A DNA stretch of 51,497 nucleotides from Eubacteriales bacterium (GTDB taxonomy: Bacteria; Bacillota; Clostridia; Lachnospirales; Lachnospiraceae): the NCBI GenBank assembly GCA_030533385.1, contig JAUNJG010000010.1, positions 1 to 51,497 of the forward strand, in the 5' to 3' direction. The notes beneath the pieces were generated by a model. The model was not told the DNA's origin. It was given only the letters and a program-made list of their open reading frames with translations, and did not search any database. A program made the position numbers and the translations under genes. The number at the start of each line of letters is the position of its first letter. Position 1 is the stretch's first letter. Shown in pieces: positions 11,131 through 30,766 of the stretch.

Positions 11131-11172
11131 TTTAGTCCCAGTCTAATCAATTATTAATGGAGGTATGATTCA

Positions 11173-11985: not shown

Positions 11986-11991
11986 GAGAAG

Positions 11992-12112: not shown

Positions 12113-12148
12113 ACAGATTATATTAAGGATTTGAGAGGTGTTGAGACC

Positions 12149-13813: not shown

Positions 13814-13842
13814 TTAGTCTATTTTAAGGAAGGTGAACTATA

Positions 13843-14496
13843 ATGGCAATTGATGAAAAATTATTAAAAAGCGTTATCGCTGAAGTTCTGAAAGAAATGA
13901 ACGCTGCTTCCGACGCCCCAGTGGCAGCCGAAGAAGTTTCTGCATCGGAGGGTATGACCATCGCTGAAGTCGGGGATGCGCAAAAAGGTACGAACCCTAA
14001 CGAAGTGGTTCTTGGCGTAGCGCCTGCTTTCGGTGTTTCCCAGACCAAAAATATCGTTGGAATTCCTCATTCTGCCATCATCAAAGAGATCATGGCGGGT
14101 CTTGAGGAGGAAGGCGTTGCCTGCAGAATCGTAAAAGTTTACAGAACGTCTGACGTATCCTTCGTAGCTCATGATGCGGCAGAGTTATCCGGATCAGGCA
14201 TTGGTATCGGCATTCAGTCCAAAGGTACGACTGTCATTCATCAAAAAGACCTCCCACCGCTGTCCAATCTGGAGCTGTTTCCTCAGTGCCCTCTGATTGA
14301 CCTGGAGACCTACAGGTCCATTGGAAAGAACGCGGCTAAATATGCGAAAGGGGAGTCCCCAAACCCTGTGCCGGTAAGAAATGACCAGATGGCAAGACCG
14401 AAATACCAGGCTTTATCCGCTGTTTTGCACATCAAAGAGACAGAACACGCTGACAGAAATAAAGCTCCTAAAGCTCTCAAAGTAGAATTTAATTAA
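13843..14496 (+). CDS. pduD: Propanediol dehydratase, medium subunit
   Basis: A 217-residue beta subunit that helps bind adenosylcobalamin. The first 20 residues ([19 protein letters not shown]) are an amphipathic helix followed by an Ala/Glu-rich linker, the classic microcompartment targeting signal that also affects solubility. The core contains [40 protein letters not shown] and [17 protein letters not shown] blocks. AAGGAAGGTG precedes ATG 13843, 29 bases after pduC. Confidence 0.96.
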
Positions 14497-14508
14497 ACGG
14501 AGGTGTCA

Positions 14509-15012
14509 ATGGTGGATCAGGAATTATTAGTAAGACAGATTATGCAGGAAGTGCTTAAAAATATGCAGGGTTCTGCAGCTCAGGAAGCTTGTGAATGTGA
14601 AGAAAAAGTGACAGTTGCCGACTATCCTATCGGGGAGAAGAAACCGGAGTTAATCAAGAGTGCGTCGGGGAAATCTCTGGATGAATTGACCCTGGAGGGC
14701 GTCATTGACGGATCTTTGACGGCGAAGGATTTCCGTATCACGAAAGAGACCCTGGAACTTCAGGCTCAGGTTGCTGAATCCGCAGGACGTGGATTCTTCG
14801 CAGTGAATTTAAGAAGAGCCGGGGAGTTGATTCCGGTGCCGGATGAAAGATTGCTGGAGATTTACAATGCGCTTAGACCGTATCGTTCCACGAAGGCTGA
14901 GTTATATGCCATCGGCGATGAGCTGATTAACGAGTACGGCGCAACCGTAAGTGGAAACTTCGTAAAAGAAGCGGCTGACATTTACGAGAAACGTGGACGT
15001 TTAAAAAAATAA
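14509..15012 (+). CDS. pduE: Propanediol dehydratase, small subunit
   Basis: A 167-residue gamma subunit of diol dehydratase. It has an N-terminal helix (MVDQELLVRQIMQEVLKNM) like the PduD signal, then the core with the conserved LTLEGVIDG, RITKETLELQAQVAE.AGR and NL.RA.EL..VPDE.LL.IYNALRPYRS segments. GGAGG at 14499 serves ATG 14509; the in-frame GTG 14503 overlaps that site. It lies 12 bases after pduD. Confidence 0.96.
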   Translation: MVDQELLVRQIMQEVLKNMQGSAAQEACECEEKVTVADYPIGEKKPELIKSASGKSLDELTLEGVIDGSLTAKDFRITKETLELQAQVAESAGRGFFAVNLRRAGELIPVPDERLLEIYNALRPYRSTKAELYAIGDELINEYGATVSGNFVKEAADIYEKRGRLKK

Positions 15013-15042
15013 CAGTTGATTTGCTTCAACGGAGGTATAAAA

Positions 15043-16863: not shown

Positions 16864-16865
16864 GT

Positions 16866-17228
16866 ATGGAAGAAAGTAAGGCAGGAGTAAATACAAGACC
16901 TTCAATAAAAGTGTTTTATGACTGTGATCATCTTTCTTTGTCTGATTTTATCGGCGTACTCCTCGGTATCGAGGAGGAAGGAATCCCCTATGACCTTCAG
17001 GCAGAGCATAGTGCAGATGTTTTGAAACTTGCACGCAATGCCAGCTTGGATTCAAGATTAGGGGTGGGCGTTGGAATTAGCAAAGAAGGCATAGTTCTTC
17101 AGTATGAAAAGCTAGATGAGGCGGCCCCTCTTTTTAGGATTAAATTCTATCAGACAGACCAGTTCAGAAATATCGGTTCCAATGCGGCAAGACTTGTCAA
17201 AAAGATGCCGTTCCGTTCTCTGGATTAG
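16866..17228 (+). CDS. pduH: Diol dehydratase reactivase, small subunit
   Basis: A 120-residue partner of PduG with a fold like the dehydratase beta subunit. The conserved run from VLLGIEEEGIPY through LGVGVGI and FR.IGSNAARLVK is visible. ATG 16866 follows the pduG stop by two bases, with AGGAG in the end of pduG. A longer open frame to 16797 lies inside pduG and is not needed. Confidence 0.94.
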   Translation: MEESKAGVNTRPSIKVFYDCDHLSLSDFIGVLLGIEEEGIPYDLQAEHSADVLKLARNASLDSRLGVGVGISKEGIVLQYEKLDEAAPLFRIKFYQTDQFRNIGSNAARLVKKMPFRSLD

Positions 17229-17266
17229 TCAAAAATCATAAATCGAAAAGGTAAGGAGGTGTAAAG

Positions 17267-17977
17267 GTGGCTGACAGAAGTATTGGTTTGATTGAAACCT
17301 TTGGGCTTGCTGCCTGCATAGCGGCGGCAGACGCAGCAGTGAAATCTGCAAACGTAAAGCTGCTCGGCTATGAGTACGCAAAGGGCGACGGCATGTGTAC
17401 TGTCAAAGTAGAGGGAAATGTCGGAGCCTGCAAGGCAGCGATTGCAGCCGGAAAGCGGGCGGCCGAGATGGTCAATGGTTCTTTGAACGGAACAAAAGGC
17501 GTGCTGCTGAAAGCCCGCCCGGCGGACGGCATGAAGGAGCTTCTCATCGAAAACAGAGAAACCGTTGGAGGTGAGATTGCCCTTGCGGAAGGATACCGCC
17601 CGGCAGGGGACAGCAAGAAGCCGGTTCTCGTGAAGAACTGGAAACCAAAGGAAGAACCAAAGGCAGAGACGCCAGCGGAAGTGACACCTGAACCGCCTGT
17701 AGAAGAAAGTCTTGGGGAAGAGACGTCCGGTGCGGAAAAAAAACCTGACTTAGAGGAAAAAGAGGAGGAATCTGAGTCGGAACCGGAGGCGCAGCCGGAA
17801 CCACCGTCTGAATCAGAACCGGAGGCGGAGGCCACGGCAGAAATGCCAAAAGAGGAAGAATCTGATTTGGCAGGAAACGCCGGGGAAGAACCGGGGACAG
17901 ACGCTCCTAAGAGAAAGACATCGACAGGAAATAATAGAAGAAGAAACCGCAAGAAGAAACCGACCCCGGAGAATTAG
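17267..17977 (+). CDS. pduK: PduK-like shell protein with acidic Pro/Glu tail and basic C-terminus
   Basis: A 236-residue protein. Residues 1-88 form a single BMC domain of the PduA/PduK type with pore segment AKGDGMCTVKV. About 95-125 is a linker. Residues about 126-210 form a low-complexity acidic region dominated by Glu, Pro and Ser. The last 25 residues are strongly basic (RRRNRKKK). PduK proteins carry C-terminal extensions, but this acid-then-base layout is longer than in Salmonella. It starts at GTG 17267 after AAGGAGGTG. Position after pduH fits pduK; pduJ, the usual neighbour, is absent. Likely a minor shell protein; the tail may bind cargo, nucleic acid or other cell structures (inference). 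Confidence 0.88.
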   Translation: MADRSIGLIETFGLAACIAAADAAVKSANVKLLGYEYAKGDGMCTVKVEGNVGACKAAIAAGKRAAEMVNGSLNGTKGVLLKARPADGMKELLIENRETVGGEIALAEGYRPAGDSKKPVLVKNWKPKEEPKAETPAEVTPEPPVEESLGEETSGAEKKPDLEEKEEESESEPEAQPEPPSESEPEAEATAEMPKEEESDLAGNAGEEPGTDAPKRKTSTGNNRRRNRKKKPTPEN

Positions 17978-18090
17978 CCCGTGCAGGCTGTCACTGTGGG
18001 GACGGTGCGGAAGGCGGACAAGGCAGATATGTAAGCCGGAGGCGGAGTGTCCGCGCCGGGTTGCATGAGTAAATATGGTGGAGGAACGGC

Positions 18091-18177
18091 ATGTGGATTC
18101 TGATGAGGCGAGTGCCTGTTTCCTTGGCGATGATGTGCAGATACAATCATGCAGAGATAAGGGGATGGCATGAATAA
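18091..18177 (+). CDS. Possible 28-residue ORF overlapping the eutJ start
   Basis: In the 192-base gap after the PduK-like gene, ATG 18091 follows GGAGGAAC at a suitable distance. It reads 28 codons to TAA 18175-18177, overlapping the eutJ start at 18170 in another frame. The product is basic and Met-rich with no recognisable motif. It could couple translation to eutJ or be chance; nothing else was seen in this gap. Confidence 0.2.
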   Translation: MWILMRRVPVSLAMMCRYNHAEIRGWHE

Positions 18178-18988
18178 TTATAATGATATTCTGGTCGGCT
18201 TTTCGGAGCTGATCAAGAACGAAGAATTTCAACCTTACGAAGGAGATTTGAAACTGGGCGTTGACCTTGGAACAGCGAACATCGTTGTCTCCGTGGTGGA
18301 TGCCAACAACACTCCGATTGCAGGGATGTCTTATCCTTCCACCGTAGTCAAAGATGGCATCGTGGTGGACTTCCTTGGAGCATCCAGGGCTGTCAAAGAC
18401 ATGAAGGCCAGGCTGGAAGAGATGATGGGCGTGGAATTTTATGAGGCAGCCACAGCGATTCCTCCGGGAATCATCTCCGGCAACGTGAAGGTGATTTCCA
18501 ACGTGGTGGAGTCCGTGGGACTTGACGTGGTGAAAGTCATTGATGAGCCGACGGCGGCTGCCACCGTCCTCGGTATTACCGACGGGGCGGTGGTGGACGT
18601 GGGAGGCGGAACAACCGGCATCAGCATCTTAAAAGGTGGAGAGGTTGTTTTTACGGCGGATGAACCCACGGGAGGCACGCACATGACGCTGGTACTTGCC
18701 GGCAGTCTGGGCTGTACTTTTGAGGAAGCGGAACGAATCAAAAAAGATCCAAAACAGGAAATGCTGGTATTTCCGGTGGTGAAACCGGTCATCGAAAAGA
18801 TGGCGGCCATCGTGGCCCGATTTATAGAGGGCTATGACGTGGATGTCATCTATGTGGTGGGCGGCGCATGCAGCTTTAAAAAGTTTGAGAGCGTCTTTGA
18901 AAAAGAGACGGGAGTCAAAACGATAAAGCCGAAGGAGCCGCTGTTGGTGACACCACTTGGAATTGCCATGAACTGTGACAAACAATAG
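18170..18988 (+). CDS. eutJ: EutJ/PduJ-class Hsp70-like chaperone ATPase
   Basis: A 272-residue actin-fold ATPase of the EutJ family, found in many ethanolamine and propanediol microcompartment loci of Firmicutes and thought to assist enzyme folding or reactivation. It shows GVDLGTANIVVSVVD (phosphate-1), DEPTAAATVLGI, VVDVGGGTTGISI (phosphate-2) and VIYVVGGACSFKKF (adenosine site). ATG 18170 follows AAGGGG. Note that the shell protein PduJ is a different protein. Confidence 0.93.
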   Translation: MNNYNDILVGFSELIKNEEFQPYEGDLKLGVDLGTANIVVSVVDANNTPIAGMSYPSTVVKDGIVVDFLGASRAVKDMKARLEEMMGVEFYEAATAIPPGIISGNVKVISNVVESVGLDVVKVIDEPTAAATVLGITDGAVVDVGGGTTGISILKGGEVVFTADEPTGGTHMTLVLAGSLGCTFEEAERIKKDPKQEMLVFPVVKPVIEKMAAIVARFIEGYDVDVIYVVGGACSFKKFESVFEKETGVKTIKPKEPLLVTPLGIAMNCDKQ

Positions 18989-18996
18989 GTGGCATA

Positions 18997-19854
18997 ATGA
19001 ATAGAAACGAGTTTGAGAATGCGCTTATGTCAACCATTGTGGAATATATTTCCGACCAGATTGTTTTAAAATATATGGATGCGTGCAGACAGGCAGCGGT
19101 TCTTTTCTCAGGCGCTTTCATTGGTTACGCCGATGCGGTGGAATCCCTGAAAGAACTGAAAAAAGAAGGCTGGAAGCTGACCGTGGTTTTGTCAAGAGCG
19201 GCGTCCGAGGTTCTCACGGAAGAACGTATTAAAAATGATATTGAGCCGGAATCCATTTATGTTGAGGGCGCTCCGATAAATGGAAGACAGATTGTTGACG
19301 ACAATCAGTTTGTAGTGATACCGGAATTGACCGTAAATACTGTGGCCAAGGTGGCAAATTGCATCAGTGATAATCTGCTGACGAACATGATTTTCAGAGC
19401 CATGGCGACGGGAAAACCGGTCATTGCAGCCATCGACGGCTGCTGTCCGGATAATGAGGTCAGAGCAAAGATGGGCTTTAAGGTGACGGAGGCCTACAAG
19501 GCAAAGATGCGCTCCAATCTGGAGGATGTGCAGTCTTACGGCATTCACCTGACGACCGCAGCAAATCTGAGCAGAAAAGTCAACAAAGTATATAGGGCGG
19601 GCTTTGATTTTCCGGCGCCGGATTCGGATTCCAAATCGGCTTCGGCAAAATCGGAGCAGGCAGCAAAAACATCTTGCGGATGCAGAACTTCCGGGACAGA
19701 TGCCAGCGTCAAGCTTGACAAAAAGGTCATCGGGAGAGTAGATATTGCAAAAAACGCAAGATATCAGACCATCATCGTGAGGAGGGACGCTCTTGTCACA
19801 GGCCTTGCGAATGATGAGGCGAGTAACCGTGGAATTGCGATTGTAAGAGAATGA
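18997..19854 (+). CDS. Microcompartment-associated flavoprotein-like protein
   Basis: A 285-residue protein whose residues about 30-165 resemble the flavoprotein (HFCD-type) Rossmann fold: AAVLFSGAFIGYADAVESL, WKLTVVLSRAASEVL, VIPELTVNTVAKVANCISDNLLTNMIFRAMATGKPVIAA. A low-complexity Ser/Ala/Lys stretch (about 205-225) leads to a CGC motif. The C-terminus (VIGRVDIAKNA..IIVRRDALVTGLANDEA..RGI.IV) resembles tail motifs seen in other microcompartment-associated proteins. It occupies the slot between eutJ and pduN that holds an uncharacterised gene in Listeria and pduM in Salmonella. Its reaction is unknown. AGGTGG precedes ATG 18997. Confidence 0.65.
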   Translation: MNRNEFENALMSTIVEYISDQIVLKYMDACRQAAVLFSGAFIGYADAVESLKELKKEGWKLTVVLSRAASEVLTEERIKNDIEPESIYVEGAPINGRQIVDDNQFVVIPELTVNTVAKVANCISDNLLTNMIFRAMATGKPVIAAIDGCCPDNEVRAKMGFKVTEAYKAKMRSNLEDVQSYGIHLTTAANLSRKVNKVYRAGFDFPAPDSDSKSASAKSEQAAKTSCGCRTSGTDASVKLDKKVIGRVDIAKNARYQTIIVRRDALVTGLANDEASNRGIAIVRE

Positions 19855-19867
19855 AGTAGGTGAAGAC

Positions 19868-20149
19868 ATGTATTTAGGTAAAGTAATCGGTACAGTAGTT
19901 TCTACTGTGAAATGCCCCAGTCTGACTGGTTGCAAGTTTTTGATTGTCGAGAAGATTAATCAGGATTTGACAGCAAAAAAACAGACGGAAGTTGCCGTTG
20001 ATACTGTTGGAGCCGGCGATGGCGAAACCGTAATTGTCGTGGGCGGCAGTTCGGCCCGTATGTCAGGTGATGGTGAGAAGAAAACCAATCTTCCCGTTGA
20101 TGCCGCAATTGTCGGTATCGTGGATACAGTAGAAGTGTCCCAGTGTTAA
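19868..20149 (+). CDS. pduN: Microcompartment vertex protein PduN (EutN/CcmL)
   Basis: A 93-residue BMC pentamer protein that caps the vertices of the polyhedral shell. It starts MYLGKVIGTVVST and has the family features LTG.KFLIV, VAVDTVGAGDGETVIVVGGSSAR and DAAIVGIVDTVE. ATG 19868 follows AGGTGA, 13 bases after the flavoprotein-like gene. Confidence 0.96.
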   Translation: MYLGKVIGTVVSTVKCPSLTGCKFLIVEKINQDLTAKKQTEVAVDTVGAGDGETVIVVGGSSARMSGDGEKKTNLPVDAAIVGIVDTVEVSQC

Positions 20150-20161
20150 AGGTGTGAATGT

Positions 20162-21181
20162 ATGGCTAATATTTATACAAGAACAGGTGACAAAGGTACA
20201 ACGGGTTTATACGGAGGTTCCAGAGTGGATAAAGACAGCCTGAATGTCGATGTGTACGGAACTTTGGATGAGGCCATCTCTTCTTTGGGGGTGGCATATG
20301 CTCAGACCCAGTCACCGGATATCAGAAAATACATTAATCATATTCAAAAAAGGATGTTTCAGGCAGGGGCAGAGTTCGCATCAGACGAGAGGGGCATGGA
20401 AATGCTCAAAGATAAAATCAATGAGGCAGATATCAAATATCTGGAAAAAATCATTGACGAATCGACGGAAGTCAACGGACTGATGCGTGAGTTTGTCGTG
20501 CCGGGTGTAAATCCTTCTTCTGCGGCTCTCCACGTTGCCAGAACGGTTGTGCGGAGAGCAGAAAGAAAAATTACGACCCTTGCCAGAGAGATTCCTGTGC
20601 GTGATGAGTTGAGGCAATTCATCAATCGTCTTTCTGATGCGTGTTATGCCCTGGCCCGTCTGGAGGAGGCCAGAGCGCAGCAGGAAGAAGTGGAGGAACT
20701 TAGAGAGACAGTGCGGAAAGTGGTGACGGAAGTCATGGGACGTGCTGTGGATAAAGGAGAATGCAAAATGGACATGTCTTTGGAATCCTTAAAAAAGATG
20801 GCAGAATATGTGGAAGAAAAGGCCAATGAAATCGGCGTGCCGATGGTTTTTTCCGCAGTGGATGAAGGTGGAAACCTTCTCTATTTCCAGAGGATGGAAG
20901 GCGCTCTCTTAATCAGTGTAAAAGTCTCTCAGGATAAGGCATATACCGCCTGTGCCCTGAAGTCTCCGACGGCAGCTCTTGCGGATGTCACAAAGCCTGG
21001 TGACAGTCTGTGGAGCCTCCACGCTTCCGGAGACGGCAGGATTGTCTGCTTCGGCGGAGGATATCCGATAGAGGTGGATGGCAAAGTCATCGGAGCCATC
21101 GGCGTCAGCGGAGGCACTGCCGAGGAAGATATGGCGGTTGCAACATATGCATTAGAAAAAATGCAAGGAGGAAAAGCATAA
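20162..21181 (+). CDS. pduO: PduO: cob(I)alamin adenosyltransferase with GlcG/HbpS domain
   Basis: A 339-residue two-domain protein. Residues 1-about 185 are a PduO-type ATP:cob(I)alamin adenosyltransferase with the N-terminal YTRTGDKGTTGLYGG ATP-binding motif and VVRRAER..T later. Residues about 200-335 are a GlcG/HbpS-like domain (YVEEKANEIGVPMVFSAVDEGGN), which binds heme in the Salmonella protein. It makes coenzyme B12 for PduCDE, using cob(I)alamin that PduS can supply. The stop TAA shares its last base with the ATG of pduP, indicating coupling. Confidence 0.96.
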   Translation: MANIYTRTGDKGTTGLYGGSRVDKDSLNVDVYGTLDEAISSLGVAYAQTQSPDIRKYINHIQKRMFQAGAEFASDERGMEMLKDKINEADIKYLEKIIDESTEVNGLMREFVVPGVNPSSAALHVARTVVRRAERKITTLAREIPVRDELRQFINRLSDACYALARLEEARAQQEEVEELRETVRKVVTEVMGRAVDKGECKMDMSLESLKKMAEYVEEKANEIGVPMVFSAVDEGGNLLYFQRMEGALLISVKVSQDKAYTACALKSPTAALADVTKPGDSLWSLHASGDGRIVCFGGGYPIEVDGKVIGAIGVSGGTAEEDMAVATYALEKMQGGKA

Positions 21182-22590
21182 TGAATATTGATGTTCAATT
21201 AATTGAAAAGGTTGTGAAAAAGGTTTTAAACGATGTGGAATCCGCTTGCCCATCCGAACCGGAGTACTCATATGGTATCTTTGAGACGATGGATGATGCG
21301 ATCGAGGCATCTTTTAAGGCGCAGAAAGAATATATGAATTACTCCATGTCCGACAGGCAGAGATTCGTGGAAGGAATCCGCGAGGTAGTTTGTACAAAAG
21401 AAAATCTGGAGTACATGAGCCAGCTGGCAGTGGAAGAAAGCGGCATGGGCGCTTATGAGTACAAGCTGATCAAAAACAGATTGGCTGCGGAAAAATCTCC
21501 GGGAATCGAAGATTTGACGACGGAGGCGCTGTCCGGAGATGACGGACTGACGCTGGTTGAGTACTGTCCGTTTGGCGTGATCGGTGCCATTGCTCCTACC
21601 ACCAATCCGACCGAGACCGTAATCTGTAACTCTATCGGAATGTTGGCAGGTGGAAATACTGTAGTGTTCAGCCCGCATCCACGCTCCAAAGGAGTTTCCA
21701 TCTGGCTGATTAAAAAATTGAACGAGAAACTGGAAGAGCTGGGTGCTCCTAGAAATCTGATTGTGACTGTTCAGGAACCTTCCATCGAGAATACCAATAT
21801 TATGATGTCTCATCCAAAGGTGCGGATGCTCGTTGCCACAGGCGGACCGGGCATCGTAAAAGCAGTGATGTCCACAGGCAAAAAGGCAATCGGAGCCGGA
21901 GCCGGCAATCCTCCTGTTGTTGTTGACGAGACGGCTGATATCGAAAAGGCAGCGGTTGACATCGTAAATGGATGCTCCTTTGATAACAACCTGCCGTGTA
22001 TCGCAGAAAAAGAAGTGATCGCTGTTGATCAGATTGCAGATTACTTAATCTTCAACATGAAGAACAACGGCGCATACGAAGTAAAAGACCCTGAAATCGT
22101 AGAAAAAATGGTGGAACTGGTAACCAAGGACAGAAAGAAACCGAACGTGAACTTCGTTGGCAAGAGCGCACAGTACATTCTTGACAAAGTGGGAATTACC
22201 GTAGGCCCGGAAGTCAAATGTATCATCATGGAGACGCCGAAGGACCATCCGTTTGTCCAGATTGAGCTGATGATGCCTATCCTCCCTATCGTTCGTGTTG
22301 CAAACGTAGACGAAGCCATTGCATTTGCCGTAGAGGTAGAACATGGCAACAGACATACAGCGATGATGCATTCAAGAAACGTTGATAAACTGACCAAGAT
22401 GGCCAAGGAAATCGAGACGACTATTTTCGTGAAGAACGGCCCGTCCTATGCAGGCATCGGCGTTGGTGGAATGGGATATACCACATTTACCATCGCAGGA
22501 CCTACAGGAGAAGGTTTGACATCAGCGAAATCATTCTGCCGTAAGAGAAGATGCGTATTAAAGGATGGACTCCACATCAGAATGAAATAA
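21181..22590 (+). CDS. pduP: CoA-acylating propionaldehyde dehydrogenase
   Basis: A 469-residue aldehyde dehydrogenase of the PduP/EutE family that converts propionaldehyde, CoA and NAD+ to propionyl-CoA. The first 20 residues (MNIDVQLIEKVVKKVLNDVE) form the known type of encapsulation helix, followed by a short linker. The catalytic cysteine is Cys273 in NLPCIAEKE. Cofactor motifs PFGVIGAIAPTTNPTET and ATGGPGIVKA are present. ATG 21181 overlaps the pduO stop by one base after AAGGAGG; an upstream open extension to 21010 runs inside pduO and is rejected. Confidence 0.97.
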   Translation: MNIDVQLIEKVVKKVLNDVESACPSEPEYSYGIFETMDDAIEASFKAQKEYMNYSMSDRQRFVEGIREVVCTKENLEYMSQLAVEESGMGAYEYKLIKNRLAAEKSPGIEDLTTEALSGDDGLTLVEYCPFGVIGAIAPTTNPTETVICNSIGMLAGGNTVVFSPHPRSKGVSIWLIKKLNEKLEELGAPRNLIVTVQEPSIENTNIMMSHPKVRMLVATGGPGIVKAVMSTGKKAIGAGAGNPPVVVDETADIEKAAVDIVNGCSFDNNLPCIAEKEVIAVDQIADYLIFNMKNNGAYEVKDPEIVEKMVELVTKDRKKPNVNFVGKSAQYILDKVGITVGPEVKCIIMETPKDHPFVQIELMMPILPIVRVANVDEAIAFAVEVEHGNRHTAMMHSRNVDKLTKMAKEIETTIFVKNGPSYAGIGVGGMGYTTFTIAGPTGEGLTSAKSFCRKRRCVLKDGLHIRMK

Positions 22591-22606
22591 TTAAGAGGTG
22601 AGTAAA

Positions 22607-23935
22607 ATGGAAAAAAACCTTATTGATATTATCGCTCAGTCCGGTATTGTAGGTGCCGGTGGTGCAGGTTTTCCTACTCATGTAAAAGTGAATGCAAAAG
22701 CTGAATATGTGATCTTAAACGGTGCGGAATGTGAGCCGTTATTAAGAGTTGACCAGCAGTTGATGGCTGTAGAAGCAAAAAAGATTCTGGAAGGATTGAA
22801 GTTGGTCAAGGAAAATGTTGGCGCTGACAAGGTCGTCATTGCTTTGAAAGACCACTATACCGCAGCAATTAACAGCTTAAAACAGCTAATTGGAGAATAT
22901 GAAGGTTTCAGCCTCCATCTTCTCGAAAACTTTTACCCGGCGGGTGACGAGCAGATTACGGTGTATGAAGTGACGGGAAGGATTGTTCCGGAGGGAGGCA
23001 TCCCCCTGAATGTGGGCGTGGTCGTTGCCAACGTTGAGACGGTTCTTAACATTTACAATGCTTACTATGAAGACCGTCCGGTGACGGATTCCTATGTCAC
23101 CTTCGCCGGCGAAGTGAAAAATCACATCACCTTAAAGCTCCCATTGGGAATGACGGTAAAAGAAGCCCTTGACATGGCAGGCGGTGTGACCGTGAACGGC
23201 CCTTATGTCGTCATCAACGGCGGCCCTATGATGGGAAAACATGTCCCTCTGGACTCCAAGATTACCAAGACGACAAAAGGATTGATCGTACTTCCGGAAA
23301 GCCATCCGTTAATTCAGGATGTGAAGATGGACATTTCCAGAATGCTTCATATTGCGAAAGCTGCCTGCTGTCATTGCAGCCTTTGTACGGAAGTATGTCC
23401 CCGTCATCTGATTGGGCATAGAATTGCTCCGCATAAAACTATCAGATTTGCTAGTTATGGCAGCTTGTGCGATGGTTCTGACACCCCTATGATTGCATTC
23501 CTGTGTTCTGAATGCAGACTTTGTCAGTATGCCTGCGTGATGAACCTCCAGCCGTGGAAGGTCAATCATGAATTAAAAGGAATCATGGCAAAACAGGGCG
23601 TCAGAAATGCATTGAACAATAAGCCTGAATCGGCACATCCAATGAGAGAGTACCAGAAATATCCGATTAAGAAATTGATTGCGAATCTGGGACTTTCCAA
23701 ATACAACGTTGCCGCGCCACTGACAGAATTGCCGGGAGAGGTGGATCATGTGTCTATTCCATGTGGACAGCACATCGGCGCACCGGCCGTTCCGTGTGTA
23801 AATGTCGGTGATACGGTAGCAAAGGGCGATGTGATCGCCAAACCTGCAGAAGGTAAGTTAGGTGCTTGTATTCATGCTAGTATCAGCGGTACGGTGAAAG
23901 CGATCGCTGACGGTTGTATCTCAATCGGAAAATAA
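22607..23935 (+). CDS. pduS: Cobalamin reductase PduS, RnfC-like
   Basis: A 442-residue flavin and iron-sulfur protein that reduces cob(III/II)alamin for PduO or shuttles electrons across the shell. It starts with the RnfC-type GGAGFPTHVK motif. SLBB-like segments follow, then two 4Fe-4S ligand sets (CCHCSLCTEVCP and CSECRLCQYAC), and a C-terminal lipoyl/biotinyl-like barrel (VNVGDTVAKGDVIAKPAEGKLG). ATG 22607 is spaced nine bases from AGAGG; an in-frame GTG at 22598 overlaps that site. It is followed directly by pduT, its known partner. Confidence 0.95.
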   Translation: MEKNLIDIIAQSGIVGAGGAGFPTHVKVNAKAEYVILNGAECEPLLRVDQQLMAVEAKKILEGLKLVKENVGADKVVIALKDHYTAAINSLKQLIGEYEGFSLHLLENFYPAGDEQITVYEVTGRIVPEGGIPLNVGVVVANVETVLNIYNAYYEDRPVTDSYVTFAGEVKNHITLKLPLGMTVKEALDMAGGVTVNGPYVVINGGPMMGKHVPLDSKITKTTKGLIVLPESHPLIQDVKMDISRMLHIAKAACCHCSLCTEVCPRHLIGHRIAPHKTIRFASYGSLCDGSDTPMIAFLCSECRLCQYACVMNLQPWKVNHELKGIMAKQGVRNALNNKPESAHPMREYQKYPIKKLIANLGLSKYNVAAPLTELPGEVDHVSIPCGQHIGAPAVPCVNVGDTVAKGDVIAKPAEGKLGACIHASISGTVKAIADGCISIGK

Positions 23936-23952
23936 AGGATGGTGTTTACGCA

Positions 23953-24504
23953 GTGAGAAAAGCAGTTGGATTTGTGGAAATTAAAAGCATTCCTGTCGGA
24001 ATCCAGACAGCAGATGAGATGGTAAAAGCAGGAAATGTAGAAATATTACTGGCTACACCAATTTGCCCTGGTAAATATGTAATTATTATTGCGGGACAGG
24101 TGGGACCTGTGAAGGCGGCCATGAGCAAAGCAGAGCTTGTGAGCGGCATTTACTTGATTGACACCCATGTTCTTGACAATATCCGTGAGGAAGTGCTTCC
24201 GGCCATCTCCGGGTTCGGAAGCACAGAAAAAATCCAGGCAGTTGGAGCAATTGAAACAATTTCTGCCTTGACGGCAATCATTGCAGCCGATGTTGCGGTG
24301 AAGGCGTCCAAAGTCAGCATTGTTGATTTGAGAATCGCCAGAGGTTTGGGTGGAAAGGGCTATCTGGTTATTACCGGTGAGGTATCTTCCGTGAAGTCTG
24401 CAATTAATGCATGTCTTGCGAAGCTGGGAGTCAGTGGGGAAGTGACATCGACCTCCATTATTCCTCGCCCGCATCCATCAATTGTTGAAAATCTTATAAA
24501 ATAA
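23953..24504 (+). CDS. pduT: Iron-sulfur shell protein PduT
   Basis: A 183-residue tandem BMC-domain trimer. Cys38 in TPICPGKYV, counted from GTG 23953, is the residue that in Salmonella PduT ligates a 4Fe-4S cluster at the three-fold pore. The second domain (about 95-180) resembles PduA and ends IIPRPH. The longer open frame from 23914 lies within pduS; GTG 23953 has AAAGGATGG in the end of pduS and matches the family start exactly. It probably relays electrons between cytosol and PduS. Confidence 0.95.
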   Translation: MRKAVGFVEIKSIPVGIQTADEMVKAGNVEILLATPICPGKYVIIIAGQVGPVKAAMSKAELVSGIYLIDTHVLDNIREEVLPAISGFGSTEKIQAVGAIETISALTAIIAADVAVKASKVSIVDLRIARGLGGKGYLVITGEVSSVKSAINACLAKLGVSGEVTSTSIIPRPHPSIVENLIK

Positions 24505-24845
24505 TCCGAAGAGTTTGTATTGACGGGGGTATGAAGAACTGCACCTGCCAGGCTTGTGCCAGTATGCCTGTATCTTCTGTGAATATGAGAGAAATGAAAA
24601 GGAATCGGATCAAAGAGGAAGCTGTCGTATATAGGCAAGCTGCGGCATTGAGAAGTCGTGTGTCCGTACCCCCTGCCATCGCAGGTAAAATGTAATGCGT
24701 AATGGTGAGGGACGGGGCAGGATATTGATGGGCAGAGGGCGGTTGCGGCAGCTTCTTTTATGGATTGACACCGTGGCGCTGTTTTTTTACAATGGTGAAT
24801 AGGCAGCCATGTTTCACAGAATCAGAACTAGAAAAGGAGAGTATT
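24505..24845 (+). other. 341-base gap after pduT
   Basis: No coding frame with a credible start fills this gap. Only short imperfect dyads were seen, for example around 24520-24585, and a CAGC/GCTG pair before a T7 run near 24784-24791 that could be a weak terminator. No riboswitch consensus was recognised. Confidence 0.4.
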
Positions 24846-25193
24846 ATGTCAGCAACTTATATACCAATCAGCGAGGAAAATAAGAAGCTTATTTTGAATT
24901 TTATCGGGATGTGCCGTCTGAGCGGACTGGAAAATGGAGGAGAGCCGTCTTTTACTTTTAGAGATAACAGAGAGGGCGTTGGCGTCGTGATGTTTGACTT
25001 GTTTTACAGAAGTACGGGCATTGAGGAACCGTGCTGGAATATGACGGTGAAAGTGGATGCTTCCACCCGCTTTCACGATGAGGAACCGGACAAACCGGGT
25101 GAGACGTATTGTTACTTGGACGCCTATAAGATAGCGAAGGATTCTTTGGAGTTAGAACATAAGACTTCCAAGTTTAATATATTCGCATTTTAA
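24846..25193 (+). CDS. Hypothetical 115-residue protein at the end of the pdu operon
   Basis: I do not recognise the family. The protein is small, acidic and soluble (no signal or membrane segment). Two short predicted beta-rich blocks are visible: GGEPSFTFRDNREGVGVVMFDLFYR and a C-terminal YLDAYKIAKDSLELEH...FNIFAF. Only Cys residues at MCRLSG, EEPCW and TYCYL stand out. ATG 24846 follows AAAGGAG; the longer frame to 24765 lacks a site. It is read in the pdu direction after a 341-base gap and ends before a perfect bidirectional terminator, so it closes the locus. A function in the microcompartment is inference from position only. Confidence 0.75.
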   Translation: MSATYIPISEENKKLILNFIGMCRLSGLENGGEPSFTFRDNREGVGVVMFDLFYRSTGIEEPCWNMTVKVDASTRFHDEEPDKPGETYCYLDAYKIAKDSLELEHKTSKFNIFAF

Positions 25194-25288: not shown

Positions 25289-26527
25289 CTATTGCTTTGC
25301 TTTCCTCTTCTTCATCAGTACAATCATGTCGTCGAGTGCCTCCTCGATGGTGTGGTAGGAGAACCATTTTCGGAAGAGGAGGGCGTCGATTTCTACAGAG
25401 AGAAACTTTGCCTGGGTTCGCAGCGTATTGTCTTCGATGTGATCAAAGTCCGCTGTCTCCATGGAGCCGCTGACGCGGCAGAAGTTGGCGCAGGCGGCAA
25501 AACCGAGACTTTCCCGGAGAATGTCGAGAGCCAGAGATTCTTTATAGCCGGTGGCCAGCTTGTATTCCAGTTTGGCATCTTTTTCCCAGTATTCAAAGAA
25601 GAATGCAATATAATCGGTATAGAGCAGATTCATCAGTGAAATCAGGTAGGAGAGACAGATTTCCCGCTCCCCCTCCACCTCGAAAGGGCGGAAGGCAGCG
25701 GAGCAGAACTGGCTGATAATGTTGGCAAGAATGAATCCCAAATCGTAGGAGAATGGCGCTCCGAAGGTGTATTCCATGTCGATGACCTTCAGATGGGTGT
25801 CATCGGCGAACAGATTGGAAGTGTGAAAATCCCCGTGAATGAGCGTCTCCGACTTGCTCATGAACAGATGGCGCAGCTTGTATCTTTGAAATGTGATTTC
25901 AGGGTCTTCAAAAAGGCTGCGGCAATATTGTTCATATTCGGGGCCGCAGGATGGGTCAAACGCATCGGAACCGAATATGCCAAGGAAGATACCGTCCTCC
26001 ATGACGTGACGAATCTCCGCATTCATAAAATGAGAGAGGAGGCTGCGAAATTCTTCGGAGCTTAAATAAAACTCAGAAGTGTAAAAGTGGGTGGCAGCCA
26101 GATATTGAGCGCCCTGTCTGGCAAGTTCGGGAAGCCGGTGATTTTGATTCATCTGATAACGAACCAGCTTCAGGTTGGAAACATCTTCCATGATAAAAAT
26201 ATTGTTCTCAAAATCTCCGTGATATAATTTAGGAACGTATTGCGGTACGATTTTGGCGCGAAGCTGCATAATCTCATACTCGTAGCGATTTCGCTTTGGG
26301 GTAATCGGCCTTCCCCGCCTTCTCAGCCGGTCGGTGGACTGTTTGACGATGTAGGAGGAGTGAGCGTCCGCCACGCGGTAGACAAAATTGCAGTAGCCGT
26401 CTCCCTCCACATCTTCGCCCAAATCGCCGTCGCCGATGCTGTTAATCTGCACCGGTTCCTCCAAAGTGATGGAAGGAACGTTTTCTTTGATGTAGGAAAC
26501 CATATTTTCTTTGGTTAAAATAAACAT
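25289..26527 (-). CDS. Methylthioribose-kinase-like phosphotransferase, copy 2
   Basis: A 412-residue kinase of the choline/aminoglycoside phosphotransferase fold, closest by eye to S-methyl-5-thioribose kinase (MtnK). A glycine-rich loop near 31-46, Lys62 in YIVKQS, the MEDVSNLK segment, the catalytic loop LIHGDFHTSN (Asp233) and metal motif VIDMEYTFGAPFSYDLG (Asp250) are all present, so it should be active. MtnK itself normally has DPEF at the last motif. AGGAGGGG precedes the start. It follows the first copy by 15 bases and is the last gene of the pduU-pduV operon. The substrate is unknown; a 5-substituted ribose or a small alcohol is plausible. Confidence 0.82.
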   Translation of the reverse strand: MFILTKENMVSYIKENVPSITLEEPVQINSIGDGDLGEDVEGDGYCNFVYRVADAHSSYIVKQSTDRLRRRGRPITPKRNRYEYEIMQLRAKIVPQYVPKLYHGDFENNIFIMEDVSNLKLVRYQMNQNHRLPELARQGAQYLAATHFYTSEFYLSSEEFRSLLSHFMNAEIRHVMEDGIFLGIFGSDAFDPSCGPEYEQYCRSLFEDPEITFQRYKLRHLFMSKSETLIHGDFHTSNLFADDTHLKVIDMEYTFGAPFSYDLGFILANIISQFCSAAFRPFEVEGEREICLSYLISLMNLLYTDYIAFFFEYWEKDAKLEYKLATGYKESLALDILRESLGFAACANFCRVSGSMETADFDHIEDNTLRTQAKFLSVEIDALLFRKWFSYHTIEEALDDMIVLMKKRKAKQ

Positions 26528-26542
26528 AATGGCAGCCCCCTC

Positions 26543-27790
26543 CTAAAGGTTTTTGATGTTGTCGCAATAAATGTGTTCCACGGTGCGCATATCGCTTAGG
26601 AACTCGTCGATGGACGTGTAGCTCTCCCATTTGACGAGCATCTGTCGGTTGAGGATGATGGAGTAACATTTGGCATTATGGCGCTGAACATAATCCTCGA
26701 TATCGTCATAGTCCGGATAAGGAATCGGGCTGACGATGCGGCCGAGCATGGCGCTGGCAGCAAAGCCTATGAACTCCCGGAGGGTGGTCAGGCAGAAATC
26801 TTCCTGAAGTCCCGGGACATTCTGATAGACGTCCTTGGCATCCTCCCGCCAGTATTGACAAAAATAATGGCAGAACTTATGGTAAGTCTCCCGAATCATG
26901 AACAGACAGTAGTCTTTGAAATTCTTGCGAAGTTGTTCCGAGGCAAAAGGCCGGAACATGGCGGCCGCATACTGGGAGATGAAGTTGGCGAGAAAATATC
27001 CCATATCATAAGAAAAAGGACCGCAGAACGTGTACTCCATGTCAATAATCTTGGCTTCCGTCTGGCTGACAAAAATGTTGGAAGTGTGCAAATCCCCGTG
27101 AATGAGACATTCTCCTTTCGTCATAAATAAATGGCGGAGCTTTTGCCGGGCAAGGCGAACGTCCGGGTCGGCGCAGATGCGCCTGGAAAAAGTCATAAAA
27201 TCCGGGTCGAGGGGGCGTCCCACGGTATCCTCCGGCGTCACGCTGGTGAGGAACATGCCCACATCCATGATTTCCCTCATGGTGGGATTCATAAAGTGAA
27301 CGGACAAATCCCGGAACTCTTTTCCATCAAGATAGTATTCAGAAGTATAAAAATTGTTGGCGGCCATATATCGTCCGACCTGGTCGGCCAGAAGAGGAAA
27401 GGTGACGCCTTTTAAAAGCTGGAACCGACTGATGCGAAGGTGAGAGACGTCCTCCGTGATAAAGATGCGGTTCTCGTCATCGCAGTCATATAAATCGGGA
27501 ATCAAATCCGGGACGATGGCCTTGCGGATTTGCATGGATTCATACTCCAGCTTAAATCGATTCATATCCAGGGTCAAATCAATGTCACGGCGGGGAGTGG
27601 CGGAAGACTGCTTTACGATGAGATGGTATCTGCCGTCAGAGACGCGATATACCATGTTGATGAATCCATCGCCATCTTCCTCGACGGAGCCTTCTCCGAT
27701 GGCGGAGACGGTCACCGGGCCGCCGTCTGTATTAAAGAAATCAAGCCTTGATTTTACATAGTCTGTCACATTTTCTTTCGTTAAGGTCAT
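26543..27790 (-). CDS. Methylthioribose-kinase-like phosphotransferase, copy 1
   Basis: A 415-residue paralogue of the next gene with the same landmarks at the same positions: Lys60 in LIVKQS, TEDVSHLRISR, LIHGDLHTSNIF (Asp233) and IIDMEYTFCGPFSYDMGYFLAN (Asp250). The two differ throughout, so this is an old duplication, not a recent one. The start ATG 27790 (MTLTKEN) matches the sister protein and has GGAGGTG upstream; a longer frame to 27820 lacks support. Placement after pduV makes a microcompartment-linked role likely but unproven. One idea is salvage of 5-deoxyribose derived from the 5'-deoxyadenosine shed by damaged coenzyme B12. Confidence 0.82.
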   Translation of the reverse strand: MTLTKENVTDYVKSRLDFFNTDGGPVTVSAIGEGSVEEDGDGFINMVYRVSDGRYHLIVKQSSATPRRDIDLTLDMNRFKLEYESMQIRKAIVPDLIPDLYDCDDENRIFITEDVSHLRISRFQLLKGVTFPLLADQVGRYMAANNFYTSEYYLDGKEFRDLSVHFMNPTMREIMDVGMFLTSVTPEDTVGRPLDPDFMTFSRRICADPDVRLARQKLRHLFMTKGECLIHGDLHTSNIFVSQTEAKIIDMEYTFCGPFSYDMGYFLANFISQYAAAMFRPFASEQLRKNFKDYCLFMIRETYHKFCHYFCQYWREDAKDVYQNVPGLQEDFCLTTLREFIGFAASAMLGRIVSPIPYPDYDDIEDYVQRHNAKCYSIILNRQMLVKWESYTSIDEFLSDMRTVEHIYCDNIKNL

Positions 27791-27861
27791 CAAGAGCGTC
27801 ACCTCCAGGTAACTTTGCAAAGTGATTTTTGTTTCTAACGTGTCTGTTTGGACACGGTTGT

Positions 27862-28341
27862 CTAATCAAAATAATCGTCCGCATAGCGCCGGGCGTTGTC
27901 TTCTTTGTATTGCTCGATCATCTGATGCAGGCTGGCAAAAAGTTCCTCCACCCCTTCTCCTGTGTAGGAGCTGACAGGAAAAATTTTGGTGCAGCCAGCC
28001 AGTTCCAGGTAGGAGCGGCCCTGCTTTTGGTTGGAATCCTCCCGGTCGATTTTGGTGAGGATGCCGACAACCGGCTTTTGAAATTTGCTGGTCAGTCCGC
28101 CGGAAAACCAGCAGTCCTCGCTGGTGGAATCCTGCACCAGCCCGATGATATCGGCATCGTGGGAGGTGATGGTGAGAGAACCCCAGTAGCCCCGCTGCTG
28201 CATGTACTCTCCCGGTGTGTCGATGAAGTCCCCCACATATTCCACCGTCTGTGTTTTGTCGTATTTGATTTCTTTGTCAATCAACCGCTGGATGAGTGTG
28301 GTTTTTCCGGCGGCGGAAGGTCCGATTAGCATGATTTTCAT
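27862..28341 (-). CDS. pduV: EutP/PduV-family small GTPase
   Basis: A 159-residue P-loop GTPase. It has Walker A GPSAAGKTT (residues about 7-15), a DTPGEY switch II motif, TKIDRE as the base-specificity motif, and SSYTGEGVEEL at the end. PduV is thought to link microcompartments to cytoskeletal movement; EutP may act as an acetate kinase-like enzyme in ethanolamine loci. ATG 28341 is eight bases after GGAGAC; an open extension upstream to 28395 has no ribosome site. It lies between pduU and the kinases. Confidence 0.93.
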   Translation of the reverse strand: MKIMLIGPSAAGKTTLIQRLIDKEIKYDKTQTVEYVGDFIDTPGEYMQQRGYWGSLTITSHDADIIGLVQDSTSEDCWFSGGLTSKFQKPVVGILTKIDREDSNQKQGRSYLELAGCTKIFPVSSYTGEGVEELFASLHQMIEQYKEDNARRYADDYFD

Positions 28342-28444
28342 AACATAGTCTCCAAAAGTAGTCGTATCTTTTGCGGTGTTCCAACAGTTGACCAAAACCT
28401 GGGAGAGAGTGTGCCGGTGACACTGTTCCTCCCCGGAAGGACAA

Positions 28445-28822
28445 TCATGTCTTGGTAATGGTCACGGTGTCAAAGCCCAGCTTATTGTAAAATGTGGTGA
28501 TGACGCTGTTTAAGGCGGCTTCCACGTTGGAGGTGGAGCCGACGATGATGACGGAGCCGGAGAAACGATCTACAAACCCCAGCTTGATGGAGGCAGCTTT
28601 GGTGCAGATGTCTGCGGCGATGATGGTGGCCTCGGATGGGGTGATGGTCAGAATGCCGATGGCGTCATGATAATCATCCGGCAGTCCCAGCTTTTTGTAT
28701 ACAGAAGCTTTTGGGCGGGTGACCATGTGAGCCAGGGTAATCTGCTTGCCGGGAACGTATTCCTGAATCATGCGGGATTTGTCTTCGGCGTTCACTCCGT
28801 TATTTATCATATCTCTTGCCAT
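28445..28822 (-). CDS. pduU: Permuted shell protein PduU/EutS
   Basis: A 125-residue circularly permuted BMC-H protein, whose N-terminal strands form the beta-barrel cap typical of PduU and EutS. Landmarks are [43 protein letters not shown] and [16 protein letters not shown] precedes ATG 28822. It is the first gene of the minus-strand operon; in Salmonella, PduU and PduV interact, and their adjacency here agrees. Confidence 0.95.
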
Positions 28823-28896: not shown

Positions 28897-28925
28897 ATTA
28901 TATAAATAAGAAAAAAGAAAGTAAA
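28897..28925 (-). promoter_or_regulatory. Candidate promoter of the pduU-pduV-kinase operon
   Basis: Reading the minus strand, TTTACT (28925-28920), 17 bases, TATAAT (28902-28897) lies about 75 bases before pduU. A GCGG/CCGC mini-hairpin follows in the leader. No shared operator with the pduA region was evident by eye. Confidence 0.55.
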
Positions 28926-29035
28926 TGTAAATTAGTCATAAACGACAAGTATTCTTTTGCGCTTCCTCATGGGCGCAGAGGAATTTTATGGGGGAGAAGT
29001 ATCATATTTTTATAAAAAAGAAAATATAATGTAAG

Positions 29036-29953
29036 ATGAAAAAATTAGGGAAGATAATCATGATGTTAAGCCTCGCCTTTTTGCTTCCGGGAATCTGCAC
29101 CATGCTCATAACCGGAAAGACGGGAGGAAACCAAAGAAAAATGGGGATTACCGTGACGTTAAAAGGAGGAGAAAAAATTGACGGAGAACAGTTTGTTGTA
29201 GGAATGGCCGCCTCGGAATTATCCTATGTCAAGGAGGAGGAAGCGTTAAAGGCATGGATGATTGTCTGTAGGACAAATTTTTTGAAGGCGGTGGGCGACG
29301 GTAAAGCGGTCAAAGAAAAAGAACTTGCCCTGGATTACATTTCCGAGGAGGCGTTGGAAAAAAATAACGGAAGAAAGGCGTGGGTGGAAGTACATAACAA
29401 GCTGGAAAAAGCGTCGGAGGAGACCTTTGGGGAGGTGCTGTATTACGGAAAGGAAAAAATAGACGCCCTCTACCATCCGGTCAGCACGGGAAGAACCGTG
29501 TCTGCGGGAGAGATATACGAGGTGGAAGTGCCGTATCTTGTCAGTGTGGACAGCAGCCAGGATGTGGAATCAGAAGAATACATGAGTATGAAAATCATGA
29601 CTTATGAAGAATGCGCGAAAAAATTAAAAAAAGGGGGGTATCAGGAGACGGCAGACAACTGCAAACAGAACTTAAAGGTGGAAGCACAGACGGCGGGAGG
29701 ATTTGTGCAAAAAGTATCCACCGGGAATCATAGCTGGACGGGGGAAGAATGGAAGAAGTTGTTTTCTTTAAACTCGTCTAATTTCTATCTGGAAGACTAC
29801 GGAGGAAGGCTGCGGATTGTGACGATAGGGAAAGGACACGGCATGGGGATGAGTCTGTATGGAGCCAACGGGCTGGCGGAGAAGGGACTGGCGGGGGAGA
29901 CGATTTTGTCCTACTATTATCCGGGGACAGAGCTAAAAAATGAATTTCCATAG
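29036..29953 (+). CDS. spoIID: Stage II sporulation protein D (SpoIID/LytB)
   Basis: A 305-residue membrane-anchored lytic transglycosylase family protein that degrades septal peptidoglycan during engulfment. It has an N-terminal signal anchor (about 7-26), the catalytic-type Glu61 in VVGMAASELSYVKEEEALKAW, and the C-terminal GHGMGMSLYGANGLAEKGL..ILSYYYPGT signature. The start is uncertain: ATG 29036 gives the typical MKK signal but has a poor ribosome site, while ATG 29060 has AGGGA upstream but loses the charged N-terminus. A SigmaE-like box (TCATATTT at 29002-29009 and ATATAATG near 29024) is possible. It is paired with an M23 protein as spoIID and spoIIQ are in Clostridioides. Confidence 0.88.
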   Translation: MKKLGKIIMMLSLAFLLPGICTMLITGKTGGNQRKMGITVTLKGGEKIDGEQFVVGMAASELSYVKEEEALKAWMIVCRTNFLKAVGDGKAVKEKELALDYISEEALEKNNGRKAWVEVHNKLEKASEETFGEVLYYGKEKIDALYHPVSTGRTVSAGEIYEVEVPYLVSVDSSQDVESEEYMSMKIMTYEECAKKLKKGGYQETADNCKQNLKVEAQTAGGFVQKVSTGNHSWTGEEWKKLFSLNSSNFYLEDYGGRLRIVTIGKGHGMGMSLYGANGLAEKGLAGETILSYYYPGTELKNEFP

Positions 29954-30013
29954 AATACCAGAGAAATGTATATTTTTTTCTATTCTGGCAAAGATATAGC
30001 CAGAGGTGATGAT

Positions 30014-30766
30014 ATGAAAAAACCAAATATTCTTTTAGAAAAGAAATATCTGTCAAGTTTGGTAATTGCAGCTTTTTTAATTTTATCTGTTCTGACTGCC
30101 TACAACATCAGGACAAACCCTGAAAATCCCGAGGAATCCAACACGGAAGTGGAGGAGACCATCGGGGACAGGGAAGGCGTGATTCGCACCGGGGAAGAAG
30201 AGCCGGAAATTAAGGCGGAGGGAGCGCAGGAGCAGGCGGACAGGCAGGAGGAGATCCCGGAAAAAAGTCAGGATGAAGCGCTTACATCAGACAGGGAGAG
30301 CGCGGGAGGAAGAACGTCGCAGCAGGCGGCGAAGCAGGACCATCTTCACTATGATGGGAAAAGAAAGTTATCCTGGCCGGTGCTTGGAAATATCATTCTC
30401 CCATACAGCATGGATACGACGATATATTACGCTACTTTAGATCAGTATGCATGTAATGACGGCGTGTTGATTGGGGCGAAAAAAGGGGAGAAAATCACGG
30501 CGGCGTCCGACGGGCGGGTGGTCAACATTTATGATTCTGATAAATACGGAAAAACCGTGACCATTCTTCTTGGAGATTACTATGAGATGTATTATTCTCA
30601 GTTGGAAAATGTAAAATTTGAGGTGGGAGAGGAAGTCAGAGAGGGAGATGTCATAGGGACGGTGGCGGACCCGACCAGAGCCTTCACCCTGGAAGGTCCC
30701 CATCTTTTTTTAAAGATGACCTGGAAAGGAGAGCCTGTAAATCCGACAGATTATCTGGAAGCGTAG
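30014..30766 (+). CDS. Degenerate M23 peptidase-family protein, SpoIIQ-like
   Basis: A 250-residue protein with one N-terminal membrane anchor (about 15-33), an acidic Glu/Ser-rich linker (about 38-105) and a C-terminal LytM/M23 domain (about 115-245). In place of the zinc motif HxxxD it reads CNDGVLIGA, and the HxH motif is HLF, so zinc binding and endopeptidase activity are probably lost. The ADPTRA and GEPVNPTDYL segments keep the fold. Next to spoIID this fits SpoIIQ, the forespore partner of SpoIIIAH in the feeding channel. GAGGTG precedes ATG 30014. Confidence 0.78.
   Translation: MKKPNILLEKKYLSSLVIAAFLILSVLTAYNIRTNPENPEESNTEVEETIGDREGVIRTGEEEPEIKAEGAQEQADRQEEIPEKSQDEALTSDRESAGGRTSQQAAKQDHLHYDGKRKLSWPVLGNIILPYSMDTTIYYATLDQYACNDGVLIGAKKGEKITAASDGRVVNIYDSDKYGKTVTILLGDYYEMYYSQLENVKFEVGEEVREGDVIGTVADPTRAFTLEGPHLFLKMTWKGEPVNPTDYLEA

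Follow-up and report, generated by a model that had tools for sequence, protein, structure and literature searches.

We analysed a 51,497-nucleotide stretch of DNA (the window; contig JAUNJG010000010.1 of assembly GCA_030533385.1, Eubacteriales bacterium, family Lachnospiraceae), in which two tandem genes for methylthioribose kinase (MTRK)-like proteins, K1 and K2, adjoin genes of a propanediol-type bacterial microcompartment (BMC). The kinase genes form a single minus-strand run with two microcompartment genes in the order pduU, pduV, K1 and K2. The first gene of this operon, pduU (28445..28822), encodes an EutS/PduU-type BMC shell protein of 125 amino acids (PF00936, 42.6 bits; EutS subfamily model NF012012, 109.4 bits, under the cut-off of 123), and pduV or eutP (27862..28341) encodes a P-loop protein of 159 amino acids (PF10662, 165.3 bits; TIGR02528, 142.5 bits, over the cut-off of 138.35). 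They are separated by 103 bases and followed, after 71 bases, by K1 (26543..27790, 415 amino acids) and, after a further 15 bases, by K2 (25289..26527, 412 amino acids), both open reading frames (ORFs) being present and intact at the place given in the first-pass annotation of this locus. The start of K1 is the ATG at 27790, placed by a preceding GGAGGT site, and K2 is preceded by its own AGGAGGGGG site. The main pdu operon occupies 10843..24504 of the plus strand and, based on family matches including PF02286 and PF00936, carries genes for a BMC shell protein, pduB, pduCDE, pduG, a pduH-like gene, eutJ, pduN, pduO, pduP, a pduS/RnfC-like gene and pduT. The two operons are convergent, with the main operon running toward K2. 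The source genome (G000) has a size of 2.70 Mb and is 92% complete, and the named relatives nearest to K1 belong to Anaerobutyricum and its kin.

K1 and K2 are 44% identical (177/402), and their best solved relatives are the methylthioribose (MTR) kinases of Bacillus subtilis (2olc) and Arabidopsis thaliana (2pyw), to which they are homologous over near full length. Both carry the HxDxH-type catalytic loop HGD(L/F)H with Asp233 and the DXE metal motif within IDMEYTF, starting at Asp250, in a numbering that coincides with B. subtilis MtnK; the catalytic motifs recognized earlier are thus present in both proteins. To place these residues in context, 102 sequences comprising K1, K2 and 100 relatives (collectively KIN) were aligned with 16 MtnK sequences (15 from 14 genomes of the window's family and the one of B. 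subtilis). Asp233, Asp250 and Glu252 are kept in all 118 rows, including every KIN row. In the plant MTR kinase, the first arginine of a strictly conserved RR motif is described as binding the ribose O2 and O3, with a G-loop asparagine near the ribose O4 and a Glu or Lys always found three residues before the RR (PMC2194712); the arginines are numbered R340 and R341 (PMC11808438). Arg340, Asn42 and Glu337 are each present in 16/16 MtnK but in 0/102 KIN rows, which also have no Lys at position 337 and do not match the MtnK G-loop GXGNXN, whereas Arg341 is found in 16/16 and 92/102 rows, respectively. Instead, KIN proteins carry Tyr, Phe or Leu at position 42 and uncharged residues at position 340, the RR motif reading GR in K1 and CR in K2.

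A second comparison of 20 MtnK rows with 69 rows of KIN plus a second subfamily, KIN-II, gave the same picture (Arg340 and Asn42, each 20/20 versus 0/69; Glu337, 19/20 versus 0/69) and showed Asn at position 238 in 69/69 of the latter but 0/20 of the MtnK rows. Furthermore, HTGS of MtnK corresponds to HTSN in KIN, apart from single substitutions at two of the positions, and IDPEF mostly to IDMEY/F. KIN-II, which was found by a class-wide search of 391 genomes together with fetched regions, mostly shows HTDLHSSN and D-G/T-EF and has lost residues 42, 337 and 340 as in KIN (9/9 rows). Judged by these motifs, the KIN family retains the catalytic chemistry and has lost the ribose grip. K1 and K2 also differ from each other in the pocket, with Leu-Gly-Arg versus Phe-Cys-Arg at positions 339–341 and Tyr versus Thr at position 348.

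The MTRK model TIGR01767 matches K1 and K2 over near-full length with 250.6 and 246.4 bits, under its cut-off of 275, as does the third paralogue of the source genome (266.7 bits). Nine KIN or KIN-II proteins were run against this model, and three of them pass the cut-off without an RR motif (L083, 305.8; L101, 279.2; L170, 309.9), while it is not reached by others, including L185, L186 and L099. Since KIN proteins fall on both sides, the cut-off alone fails to separate the families, and the model over-annotates: the three passing proteins would be named S-methyl-5-thioribose kinase by NCBIfam. For the phylogenetic analysis, relatives were taken from a scan of a genome collection covering 84,980 species (best 79 loci of 116 relatives), leaving out nine ORFs from loci repeating others and three fragments (L055, L073, L094). 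In the resulting quick tree, KIN and MtnK rows are split with an SH-aLRT support of 100. The assignment of K1 and K2 to the MtnK family therefore holds as far as MTRK-like relatives with intact catalytic residues are meant; as true MtnK they were rejected on motifs, scores and mtnA context (see below).

Next, we investigated how often these kinases lie beside shell genes, using 80 loci at which a script placed the kinase (the window included; several loci share one genome). In this count, four loci (L102, L105, L110, L112) were scored as kinase-less although a kinase is present according to a hidden Markov model (HMM), and L027 was scored as unlinked despite duplicating locus L008. At 25/80 loci, pduU or pduV lies within 2 kb of the kinase; further loci show the kinase with an AraC-type gene and a BMC shell gene (n = 3), with an AraC-type gene (n = 1) or with pduT only (n = 1, L047). 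The order pduU-pduV-kinase(s), whose conservation in Lachnospiraceae had been proposed as a check, is recurrent in this family, with three tandem kinases after pduU-pduV at L054. Within the K1 clade of the tree, 23/24 loci (all but L047) are linked, unlike an additional K1-like fragment (L094). In a different family of the class sample (f56), a KIN-II gene directly follows pduU-pduV in 7/7 genomes, two of which (G770, G653) have a tandem pair, and in Flavonifractor the kinase gene is followed by a PocR-domain histidine kinase and then by BMC and pduB genes. A single clade of all pduUV-linked kinases was rejected by the approximately unbiased (AU) test on the quick tree (p-AU 1.35e-5, for a group defined by linkage after the tree had been seen), at least four changes of the linked state are needed, and at L052–L054 the later kinase stems from a branch other than that of K2. 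The association of kinases with pduUV was therefore gained or kept in several branches. One genome harbours six KIN paralogues (SVDY01 contigs; L054, L057, L065, L074). Inspection by eye of the neighbours of unlinked kinase copies gave no consistent substrate hint.

The pduU-pduV-kinase arrangement has been seen before, namely in cluster 2 of Acetobacterium woodii (pduU-pduV2-"methylthioribose kinase", Awo_c26590), where it was dismissed as unrelated to BMC function (PMC7593272). The gene order is the same as here, but the A. woodii kinase is 24% identical to K1, occurs in one copy and lies apart from the main pdu cluster. The first-pass annotation knew of no characterised arrangement of this kind; this holds insofar as no description of a shell-protein–kinase module was found in the open-licence PMC text, where the one paper found to contain both "bacterial microcompartment" and "methylthioribose kinase" is that on A. 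woodii, but the arrangement itself had already been noted there. Regarding two BMC catalogues, the word "kinase" is absent from the main text of one (PMC8217296), and in the other (PMC4207490) it appears in six places and "phosphotransferase" in one (RMM1 locus), all concerning other proteins.

Besides this physical linkage, the kinases co-occur with the large subunit of the B12-dependent diol dehydratase (PF02286). This domain is present in 28/391 genomes of the class sample, in 21/299 genomes of the family sample (20 over cut-off) and in 0/14 control genomes. In the class sample, it is encoded by all eight genomes that carry the kinase, namely G000 and the seven f56 genomes, compared with only 2/13 genomes with a true MtnK (hypergeometric value of 2.5e-10 for 8/8 versus 28/391, which takes no account of kinship). 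Individual searches covered 20 genomes, comprising all kinase genomes of the two samples and eight reached via chosen loci. PF02286 was found in 19/20 of them, or in 18/19 when G780, whose coordinates are those of G175, is counted once; the match in G331 is a contig-end fragment. BMC shell genes were detected in 20/20 (19/19 without the duplicate G780). In the one genome where the dehydratase was not found, G351 (87% complete), a BMC locus encodes a glycyl radical enzyme together with a radical SAM protein and a PF00596-type class II aldolase.

We then considered the genomic context of mtnA, the isomerase gene of the 5-deoxyribose salvage route. Of the 14 family-sample genomes with a true MtnK, 13 have mtnA directly next to it (exception G021) and nine have a PF00596 gene no more than 5 kb away. 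The source genome shows no mtnA over cut-off, with one partial match of 27.2 bits, and two PF00596 matches; in the single-contig genome G319 of the same genus, which has three KIN genes, neither mtnA nor PF00596 was matched. The statement that kinase genomes lack mtnA would nevertheless be too simple: it is true of G000, G319, G331 (68% complete) and G779, but 15/19 kinase genomes searched (among them 13/14 added by a wider search) have mtnA over cut-off. In all seven f56 genomes, mtnA is found beside an MtnP phosphorylase (by tblastn; in three also by HMM, one of these under the MTAP cut-off), in G175 and G781 beside a deaminase-type amidohydrolase (under every curated cut-off) and PNP, and in a Geosporobacter and an Anaerosolibacter genome beside a true MtnK (516 and 461 bits), each with a separate KIN gene. 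None of these partners was seen in the fetched stretch of the remaining four (G778, G782, G783, G351). In 0/15 genomes does mtnA lie beside KIN; wherever a neighbour can be recognised as the source of the sugar phosphate, it is a protein other than KIN. In a further family (f29; L179–L181), cobalamin-type genes (CobB/CobQ-like and an aminotransferase read as CobD; Pfam was run on L179 only) are immediately followed by genes for a true MtnK, an MtnA-type protein and a class II aldolase, which makes this operon, by its gene content, a natural candidate for salvage of 5'-deoxyadenosine tied to B12.

Taken together, we favour, at about even confidence, the explanation that K1 and K2 are active small-molecule kinases, homologous to MtnK yet forming a separate family, which serve bacteria with diol-dehydrating microcompartments. 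Since they are MtnK-like kinases without the key sugar-binding residue and adjoin genes of the organelle, they probably perform an as yet undiscovered function connected with the propanediol organelle. An alternative that had been voiced at first pass, a different substrate linked to the microcompartment, is the one that survives in view of the recurrent linkage and the co-occurrence with diol dehydratase. In such a reaction, phosphate would be moved from ATP onto a hydroxyl group of a substrate that presumably is not gripped as a ribose, since the ribose-gripping Arg and Asn42 are replaced as described above; Asp233 would act as the base, while Asn238 and the acids of the DXE motif may coordinate metals. 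K1 and K2 would be made together with PduU and PduV, and because the Salmonella counterparts of the latter two interact, presumably at the outer face of the shell (PMC4315436), the most likely site of the reaction is the cytosol next to this face, possibly with PduV docking the kinases. As K1 and K2 differ at pocket positions, they probably take two different compounds, which may arise in or feed the breakdown of diols or glycerol. More tentatively, and with clearly less confidence, we propose that such loci are satellite modules. Each would join one to three dedicated MTRK-like kinases to a shell protein, which is either PduU accompanied by PduV or a lone BMC-domain protein served by an AraC sensor of its own. 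The modules would give the compartment an extra phosphorylated input or outlet, and they may have arisen repeatedly, drawing on different branches of a single kinase family. In this context, L063 (= L167), L065 and L069 each show a kinase gene, an AraC-type regulator gene and one BMC shell gene in succession and possibly represent satellite loci of the main compartment.

Several observations weigh against the favoured explanation. At 50/80 loci, there is no shell-linked gene within 2 kb of the kinase. Seven of the eight kinase genomes in the class sample belong to one family, so that kinship inflates the co-occurrence, and no kinase of this kind was seen in 20/28 genomes with the diol dehydratase (scoring covered some of the candidates in each genome), which means that the kinase is dispensable for diol use. 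For the A. woodii cluster, pduU transcript levels are reported to be 20–30 fold below those of the main pdu cluster on the substrates examined (PMC7593272), and an upstream comparison in the window detected no site common to the kinase operon and the main pdu operon. Regarding the pocket, N42 of B. subtilis MtnK is described as lying >10 Å from O4, the contact between Asn and MTR being found only in the plant structure (PMC2194712); the loss of Asn42 therefore weighs less than that of Arg340. Some of these points would be explained if the linkage to pduU-pduV were merely historical and the kinases unrelated to the compartment, which would suit the many unlinked loci, the weakly transcribed A. 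woodii cluster and the location of the kinase operon on the other strand than the main pdu operon. However, two kinase subfamilies are linked in two families, second kinases come from different branches, and the co-occurrence with diol dehydratase holds even for unlinked kinases, so we consider this explanation unlikely. It is distinctly unlikely, in our view, that the substrate is threonine or an amino alcohol (1-amino-2-propanol, ethanolamine), phosphorylated either to supply the compartment with a second input or to build the cobalamin side chain in place of PduX. A possible APH-family phosphotransferase has been described for the 1-amino-2-propanol microcompartment of Rhodococcus (PMC6620236), K1 weakly matches the choline/ethanolamine kinase family PF01633 (E 0.0038, under cut-off), the equivalent Asp of the kinase PsiK was proposed to bind an amine (PMC11808438), and no pduX or pduW was named among the window ORFs that were run, which were not all ORFs and included no search aimed at CobD or PduX. 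An amine substrate has no direct support, however, and only 8 of 98 PduV/EutP loci counted at >=62 bits in the class sample are followed by such a kinase, showing that ethanolamine-type loci are not generally tracked.

The kinases might also act on proteins, modifying PduV, PduU or another shell protein. This idea would fit an operon shared with two proteins that interact in Salmonella (PMC4315436) and a protein-kinase-like fold family with Asn238, as found in other kinases (for its role, see PMC2194712), and one clade does not account for the linkage; a genome with six paralogues, the variation among pocket residues and the number of unlinked copies are better in line with small molecules, and we regard protein substrates as improbable. 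Least probable of all, and in our opinion very improbable, is the function suggested by the first-pass annotation, namely that 5-deoxyribose or methylthioribose kinases salvage the 5'-deoxyadenosine lost from coenzyme B12 in PduCDE. It is true that the closest solved relatives are MTR kinases, that TIGR01767 is the top NCBIfam match and is in part passed over cut-off, that a phosphorylase/nucleosidase-family gene (PF01048) occurs in 19/19 and mtnA in most kinase genomes searched, and that a true MtnK-mtnA-aldolase operon adjoins cobalamin-type genes in other clostridia. The claim is not supported, however, in view of the complete loss of Arg340, Asn42 and Glu337 in the KIN rows, of G319 with its three KIN genes but no mtnA or aldolase match, and of the mtnA genes themselves, which lie beside MtnP, deaminase and PNP, true MtnK or none of these and never beside KIN.

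Comparison with known systems further delimits the microcompartment-linked kinase family favoured here. KIN proteins share with MtnK the overall homology, the catalytic and metal motifs and mostly the second Arg, but they are linked to or co-occur with diol metabolosomes rather than lying beside mtnA. The kinases of dihydroxyacetone phosphate (DHAP) shunts (mtnK with mtnA and aldolase) are homologous as well, and a link to B12 would be plausible, but K1 and K2 have no adjoining isomerase or aldolase gene. The 1-amino-2-propanol microcompartments of Rhodococcus and Mycobacterium likewise have a possible APH-superfamily kinase of unproven substrate in the BMC locus, although this is another locus type, compared here by description. 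PsiK, the 4-hydroxytryptamine kinase, provides an example of an MTRK-like enzyme without the twin Arg acting on another substrate; both Arg are replaced in PsiK but one is kept in KIN, and PsiK matches K1 with an E value of 0.016 and K2 not at all. If the favoured explanation is true, K1 and K2 would represent a step of propanediol or glycerol organelle metabolism in gut bacteria (Anaerobutyricum, Flavonifractor) and acetogens that was overlooked because the enzyme resembles methylthioribose kinase. It would also provide a concrete protein pair for assays and a suggested partner for the unexplained PduU-PduV pair; the interest of the kinases lies in a role that is testable and has been masked by their likeness to a known enzyme.

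Upstream of pduU, we identified a sigma-70-like promoter on the minus strand (TTTACT-17-TATAAT, 28897..28925) with 10/12 consensus matches; in the scanned region, 10 such promoter-like sites were found, compared with a shuffled mean of 6.0 (sd 2.0). Further upstream lies the element AAAAGAATACTTGT (28945..28958, minus strand), a candidate activator site, which by eye has a match upstream of pduU in 4/10 relatives inspected (L035, L037, L040, L046). The window contains one exact copy, and copies with <=3 mismatches (11 versus a mean of 6.4) are not clearly over chance; no significant match was found upstream of pduA. A site common to the upstream regions of pduU and pduA was rejected, since the best candidate reached 13/16 bases and the shuffled maximum was 14. 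A search for known RNA elements by Rfam at gathering thresholds yielded one tRNA and nothing else.

Several neighbouring genes were also noted. Between pduT and K2, the window encodes a 142-amino-acid ORF (24765..25193, plus strand) that has no Pfam or NCBIfam match and has relatives near kinases at 10 other loci. Divergently upstream of pduU lie a SpoIID-like gene and a peptidase M23 gene (29036..30766, plus strand), which are kept in relatives. A divergent membrane protein of 302 amino acids shows no Pfam match. In three f56 genomes (L169–L171), a KIN gene lies downstream of genes for an ABC ATPase and a UPF0014 membrane protein, all in the same orientation (Pfam was run on L170 only). Elsewhere in the source genome, there is a second pduU-pduV pair without a kinase (L242, contig C108), and the third KIN paralogue (L031, G000:C15:947-2194), with the catalytic loop HADMHTSN, adjoins a divergent membrane protein of 314 amino acids. 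Members of this membrane protein family, of which the one at L075 has no Pfam match, are found near kinases at seven loci, including that of L031.

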